Made by a program: the position numbers and the translations under genes. The notes under the pieces were generated by a model, which worked only from the letters and a program-made list of their open reading frames with translations, made no database searches and was not told where the DNA came from. From assembly GCA_902569615.1 (NCBI GenBank), contig CACFUX010000001.1:16319-80318 (forward strand): a stretch of 64,000 bases of DNA, read 5' to 3'. Origin of the DNA: an uncultured Pelagibacteraceae bacterium (GTDB lineage: Bacteria > Pseudomonadota > Alphaproteobacteria > Pelagibacterales > Pelagibacteraceae). Each line of letters opens with the position of its first letter. The first letter of the stretch is position 1. Shown piece by piece: positions 7,131-36,444 of the stretch.

Positions 7131-7140
7131 ATTCCCGATA

Positions 7141-7170
7141 TTGAAAATTTAAAATTAGTAACTATATAAT
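7141..7170 (+). promoter_or_regulatory. Putative sigma70-type promoter of hsp20
   Basis: TTGAAA (7141-7146), 18-nt spacer, TATAAT (7165-7170). Confidence 0.5.
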
Positions 7171-7176
7171 TTTGAA

Positions 7177-7229
7177 AGTCGCCTAATGGGGCTTTTATAA
7201 ATAAACTTGCTTTAACAAAGGAGGATATT
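7177..7229 (+). promoter_or_regulatory. ROSE-like RNA thermometer in the hsp20 5' UTR
   Basis: CUUGCUUU (7206-7213) pairs with the Shine-Dalgarno AAAGGAGG (7217-7224) with a single G-G mismatch and AAC loop. It contains the ROSE-type UUGCU anti-SD. A GC-containing hairpin (GCCUAAUGGGGC) lies upstream. Confidence 0.65.
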
Positions 7230-7676
7230 ATGACAAGTAAGGATTTATCTATATTTAACTCTCTAAGACCTTTTTCAATTGGTTTTGACGATATGTTCGA
7301 CCAATTTGAAAGTATGTTGGGCAATGGGCATATGACTATGCAGTCAAACTACCCTCCATACAACATAAGAAAAACTGGAAAGGATAACTACTCTATAGAG
7401 GTTGCTCTTGCTGGTTTTAGTAAAAGGGATGTAGAAGTTGAGTTTGAAGACAATTTATTAACTGTAAAAACAAAACAAGTTGATAAGTCTGAGGACAAAA
7501 GTGAAGATGGAGAAATTATTCACAAAGGTATTTCTCAAAGACATTTTGCTAGATCGTTTACAATTGCAGATGATGTAAAAGTAGGTGGCGCAGAACTAAA
7601 AGATGGTCTTTTGACGATAGCTTGTGAAAGAATTGTACCTGAGTATAAAAAGAAAAAACTTATTGAAATTAAATAA
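7230..7676 (+). CDS. Small heat shock protein, Hsp20/IbpA family
   Basis: Alpha-crystallin domain (PPYNIRKTGKDNYSIEVALAGFSKRDVEVEFEDNLLTVKTKQ...HKGISQRHFARSFTIADDVKV). Confidence 0.9.
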   Translation: MTSKDLSIFNSLRPFSIGFDDMFDQFESMLGNGHMTMQSNYPPYNIRKTGKDNYSIEVALAGFSKRDVEVEFEDNLLTVKTKQVDKSEDKSEDGEIIHKGISQRHFARSFTIADDVKVGGAELKDGLLTIACERIVPEYKKKKLIEIK

Positions 7677-36353: not shown

Positions 36354-36444
36354 TATAGGCTTTATATGGAAACTATTTTTATAATTTCAATAGCATTATT
36401 TACTTTACATTGCCGATCATATCCCATAAATGCTGAATTTATAA

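Follow-up and report, generated by a model that had tools for sequence, protein, structure and literature searches.

The hsp20 leader and its two hairpins

SAR11 bacteria, whose cells rank with the most abundant on Earth, are considered to have little regulation. The window, that is the whole stretch of 64,000 nucleotides analysed here, derives from the genome of a member of the Pelagibacteraceae (SAR11). It contains the gene of an IbpA-type small heat-shock protein, hsp20, which is the sole PF00011 match in the genome assembly (~73% complete). The best NCBIfam match of the protein is IbpA, with a score below the cut-off, and 37% of its residues are identical to E. coli IbpA. Named relatives were found in uncultured Pelagibacteraceae and in Candidatus Pelagibacter ubique. 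The following features were assigned to the gene and its leader:

7140-7169, plus strand: putative sigma32-type promoter, ATTGAAA (7140-7146), N14, ACTATATAA (7161-7169), based on the consensus of relatives
7174-7196, plus strand: hairpin I, 9 bp stem with a single bulged G7181 and loop UAAU; predicted MFE -8.0 kcal/mol, covariation
7206-7213, plus strand: anti-Shine-Dalgarno (anti-SD) CUUGCUUU with the ROSE core U(U/C)GCU at 7207-7211, present in 130 of 130 leaders
7206-7224, plus strand: hairpin II, the putative thermosensor, pairing anti-SD with SD; based on folds and energy by temperature
7219-7224, plus strand: Shine-Dalgarno sequence (SD) AGGAGG, read from the sequence
7230-7676, plus strand: hsp20, 148 aa, start codon ATG at 7230; PF00011, 62.5 bits
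7235-7241, plus strand: AAGUAAG in codons 2-4, candidate alternative partner (7 bp) of CUUGCUU (7206-7212) in the anti-SD; frozen at synonymous sites

In hairpin II, which a linker separates from hairpin I, the anti-SD strand is followed by the loop AAC, the complementary strand AAAGGAGG (7217-7224) and AUAUU-AUG. G7209 faces G7221 as a mismatch, and in another register it forms a bulged G. The letters, the fold, the G-G mismatch and the sequestration of the SD are as the initial annotation had described them. The upstream hairpin that it had reported as GCCUAAUGGGGC is present as well, but is longer than was given, comprising the 9 bp of hairpin I with the sequence GAAAGUCGCCUAAUGGGGCUUUU. 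The leader contains two hairpins, within the two to four stem-loops that characterize ROSE elements, and has the U(U/C)GCU anti-SD and a small heat-shock gene downstream.

Leaders were gathered from 201 genomes of the genus and 197 genomes of the order. U(U/C)GCU lies opposite the SD in all 130 distinct Pelagibacteraceae leaders, which represent five genera (128 CUUGCU, 2 CUCGCU), so that the stem is conserved in orthologous leaders, a point on which the initial annotation had staked its reading. The sole change in the core, U to C, is permitted by the ROSE consensus. CUUGCU is constant across relatives while the loop of hairpin II varies in length and sequence; the SD is fixed and hairpin II therefore cannot show covariation. 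The compensatory changes that the initial annotation had proposed to look for in SAR11 leaders were found in hairpin I, where 62 non-redundant leaders contain 41 double-change cells compared to 11.6 in shuffles. Its most variable pair occurs as all four Watson-Crick types, and its bulged G is invariant. When the partner strand was slid by 2-3 columns, pairing of hairpin I dropped from 94% to 33-46%.

The single-sequence fold of the leader is unexceptional (z -1.21). The structure is conserved across relatives, however, and this comparative evidence is decisive. Indeed, among ~450 ORFs in 460 kb of the window's genome, CUYGCU stands ahead of the SD in only one, hsp20. Both hairpins are real, lie at the positions given and are far beyond chance. 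We also considered that hairpin I might simply terminate transcription of the S9 peptidase gene upstream, with hairpin II complementing the SD by chance. Not far past the upstream stop codon, the 3' arm of hairpin I in the window does end in UUUU. Relatives, however, have no U-run after hairpin I (GGGGCUUACAUAAAUAAAC), and the core of the hairpin is constant while its flanks covary. Moreover, hairpin I lies downstream of a conserved promoter and CUUGCU is found in all leaders. This reading is thus extremely improbable.

A heat-shock type promoter

A TTG(A/G)A -35 element is present in 129 of 130 relatives, with a spacer of exactly 14 in 119 of these 129, giving the consensus CTTGAAA-N14-CCCATATAA. 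Scored with a matrix that was trained without the window, the window copy reached 19.5 (training median 22.7). By sequence, the elements of a sigma32 promoter are in place: CTTGAAA, a spacer within ~11-16, a CCCATNT-like -10, and RpoH in the genome (355 bits). In 20 of 20 Pelagibacteraceae, groES is preceded by CTTGAAA and a -10 that resembles that of hsp20. Across these groES loci (L157:9080-9136; L283-L302) the conserved promoter reads CTTGAAA-N13-15-xCxATATxA, a motif that is likely to be the SAR11 sigma32 consensus. Transcription of hsp20 would start near 7174-7177, and we infer from the promoter motif that it is driven by RpoH.

The initial annotation had instead read a sigma70 promoter, and had suggested that heat sensing by RNA may replace protein control. 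TTGAAA (7141-7146) and TATAAT (7165-7170) do exist in the window, and TTGAAA-N18-TATAAT is legible in this copy. What relatives conserve, however, is the sigma32-type register, groES shares it, and rpoH is present. For this reason a sigma70-driven leader acting in place of protein-level control appears very unlikely, and the notion of replacement was abandoned. Most likely, sigma32 and the thermometer act together, RNA sensing adding to protein control. A ROSE-type leader was not seen on SAR11 rpoH.

Some further sigma32-related sequences were noticed. Two strong sigma32-like matches in the genome (L176, L170) are not followed by any ORF within range, and were taken as chance. Within the window, ATTGAAA-N14-TCCATATAA is located at 36391 on the minus strand, 38 nt before a response-regulator-like ORF. 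In most genomes of the sister family f2 the main RpoH-like sigma factor is accompanied by another, divergent one (~290-300 bits), for example at G224:C10:9335 and G204:C1:277417.

Predicted temperature response and the frozen start codons

The SAR11 ibpA/hsp20 leader is very probably a short two-hairpin ROSE-type RNA thermometer of the Pseudomonas ibpA kind. The ROSE architecture that the initial annotation had seen on this IbpA-type gene is borne out by conservation, covariation, a covariance-model match across orders and likeness to Rfam ROSE_3. RpoH would transcribe hsp20 from a promoter of the CTTGAAA-N14-CCCATAT type, as the sequence suggests, and the transcript would begin with the stable hairpin I. 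The weak hairpin II would follow, in which CUUGCU masks AGGAGG with a destabilizing G opposite the SD. Warming would melt hairpin II, free the SD and allow translation. Sequence, conserved folding, promoter motif and association with hsp20 are observed here; the site of transcription start, melting inside cells and a block of translation at low temperature are proposed.

In folding predictions the SD is paired to 0.82 at 15 C, compared to 0.50 in shuffled leaders. Deletion of the conserved G that faces the SD is predicted to make hairpin II 1.9 kcal/mol more stable. For hairpin II in isolation, the predicted median is -2.5 kcal/mol at 37 C, and the level of -5 kcal/mol is predicted to be crossed at ~18 C (5-95% range 12-22 C). 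An SD hairpin is inhibitory at about -5 to -6 kcal/mol, as cited in PMC3669281. The modelled energies suggest that hairpin II is tuned to a cooler, seawater temperature.

Another reading is that the leader mainly serves to bind the gene's own product, an IbpA-type self-repression in which temperature would act via titration by denatured proteins. In E. coli, IbpA contacts the 5' UTR of its own mRNA via R93, and Y34 is needed as well (PMC10474464). Both residues are retained in the SAR11 protein (NYPPYN, GISQRHF), and so is R97; K98, however, is replaced by S. Furthermore, the thermometer already explains the conservation of an SD-masking U(U/C)GCU stem, and E. coli has both layers. Self-repression as the chief function is therefore unlikely. 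Since R93 and Y34 are kept, it may, by analogy, add to the thermometer.

Compared to other genes of the genome, the SD of hsp20 is not unusually paired when -55 to +20 is folded (14th percentile). This comparison led us to a helix between the anti-SD and the beginning of the ORF: SD occlusion is ordinary in this fold because the anti-SD has a second partner there. Codons 2-4 are nearly invariant among distinct start contexts, with ACA in 135 of 136, AGU in 136 of 136 and AAG in 132 of 132 Lys cases. Elsewhere in hsp20, AGU and AAG are minority codons, with ~12% and 20%, respectively, of the codons for their amino acids. Codon identity is at least 0.985 at 4 of 117 degenerate conserved positions, and three of these are codons 2-4. 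The start codons of groES, in contrast, vary freely. Synonymous shuffling, carried out on the leader with 75 nt upstream, past the likely start site, gave an anti-SD:codon pairing as strong as the native one in 6.3% of shuffles.

From these sequence comparisons an RNA-level constraint on codons 2-4 looks solid. Its purpose, an element that reaches into the ORF, is something we infer. CUUGCUU could alternate between the SD (closed) and AAGUAAG, which leaves SD and AUG in a loop, with temperature shifting the balance. The frozen codons, their absence in groES and the shuffles favour such a switch. So does the predicted window ensemble, in which the closed state falls from 0.61 to 0.30 and the alternative rises from 0.39 to 0.68 between 5 and 48 C. 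However, the two anti-SD helices are predicted to be almost iso-energetic at all temperatures, which places the shift within model error, and the switch is therefore put forward as a hypothesis. The pairing is also weaker or absent in genera g2 and g3 and in family f2. In addition, the frozen codons could meet another RNA-level need, and a helix spanning +6 to +12 might by itself impede initiation. We give the switch somewhat less than an even chance; it extends the thermometer explanation and does not exclude it. More tentatively still, codons 2-4 might be a second, selected partner of the anti-SD in g5 and in its sister, the main SAR11 genus. The thermometer would then be a bistable switch, poised near seawater temperature, and not a zipper that simply melts; in its open state the diagnostic G of UUGCU would form a G-U pair.

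Distribution and relation to known ROSE elements

A covariance model, R1, was built from the Pelagibacteraceae leaders. Searched against the window's genome, it gave a single match at E<=0.1, the one at hsp20 (E 5.6e-15). Of 80 named Pelagibacteraceae loci it matched 79, each time up to the start codon, and the one locus missed includes just 3 nt of leader. A search of 289 genomes of the class with R1 revealed leaders in further alphaproteobacterial families, and seven of these leaders directly precede Hsp20 genes. The SAR11 sister family has UCGCU before AGGAGG, with different upstream hairpins. Class matches such as L187, L194 and L196, among others, were judged to be terminators or chance.

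Weak R1 matches were also noted ahead of other genes. In two other alphaproteobacterial genomes, L195 (G570; E 0.065) and L189 (G616; E 0.022), both from position 1501 on, are located directly upstream of RpoH-like genes and have hairpin I and UUGCU before the SD. No such leader was seen ahead of an RpoH-like gene in the few order relatives searched. L191 (G610; 1501-1557; E 0.035) lies directly upstream of dnaK, with CUUGCU before GAGG. According to a 2014 review, ROSE is always tied to small heat-shock genes.

The Rfam scan proposed in the initial annotation returned no ROSE or other relevant match in the window, either at the gathering threshold or at E<=10. RF00435 (ROSE) and RF01832 (ROSE_2) did not reach the gathering score and have no match in the window, and neither has RF02523 (ROSE_3; gathering 43 bits). 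ROSE_3 scores of relatives were at most 25.8 bits in the order and 28.6 bits in another family of the class. Among 4227 Rfam families, ROSE_3 ranked first in three relatives, aligned over its full length at the expected place with a score below threshold. No Rfam ROSE model reached its gathering score in the window or in any relative tested. Searched over 21 whole genomes, RF02523 had no match above the cut-off, and its scores in all 14 control genomes were at chance level, so that weak whole-genome ROSE_3 scores are meaningless.

In the open-access literature searched, we found no report of a thermometer in a SAR11 or Pelagibacter hsp20 leader. A 2009 paper on structured RNAs of P. ubique has no mention of heat, thermometer, chaperone, hsp or ibpA. 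On the small heat-shock gene of SAR11, a conserved leader that is predicted to sense temperature would be superimposed on sigma32, and its set point is predicted to lie near the temperature of the sea surface. The known range of the short two-hairpin ROSE would grow beyond Pseudomonas to include Pelagibacterales and other Alphaproteobacteria, in which Rfam models miss the element, and the frozen start codons offer a testable idea on ROSE switching.

A 2005 survey, as cited in PMC4166951, covers alpha- and gammaproteobacteria and lists more than 40 ROSE elements. The SAR11 leader shares with rhizobial ROSE, the founding class (Bradyrhizobium hspA, RF00435), its occurrence in Alphaproteobacteria, a small heat-shock gene and an SD sequestered by U(U/C)GCU. 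Rhizobial elements, however, have three to four hairpins (PMC3669281), and RF00435 has no match here. Calling the architecture alphaproteobacterial, as the initial annotation did, was therefore loose; it is the short two-hairpin Pseudomonas type. With E. coli ibpA (ROSE_2) it has in common the ibpA gene and a UCGCU/AGGAG hairpin. The E. coli leader also contains a bulged-G hairpin, GGACGC[G]CCUGAUGGGUGUUC, that is shaped like SAR11 hairpin I; this hairpin (L282) lies just upstream of the Rfam ROSE_2 model, which omits it. The E. coli leader is longer, with one extra hairpin, and R1, run on E. coli, did not match it.

The Pseudomonas ibpA element, of which we judge ROSE_3 to be the Rfam counterpart (Krajewski 2013, PMC3669281), differs from the SAR11 leader in several respects. 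The latter is AT-rich, its codons complementary to the anti-SD are frozen, and its hairpin II is weaker at 37 C (the predicted median of -2.5 versus a reported -4.1 to -7.6 kcal/mol, PMC3669281). The best relative of the SAR11 order also stays at 25.8 bits against the ROSE_3 cut-off of 43. The probed leaders of P. putida and P. aeruginosa ibpA combine sigma32, a stable hairpin I and a melting hairpin II with U(U/C)GCU (PMC3669281). SAR11 has the same arrangement of a sigma32-type promoter, two hairpins, a U(U/C)GCU anti-SD and an IbpA-type gene. In both, the start codon lies outside the stem, and hairpin I of the ROSE_3 consensus, like that of SAR11, bulges a single G ahead of CC.
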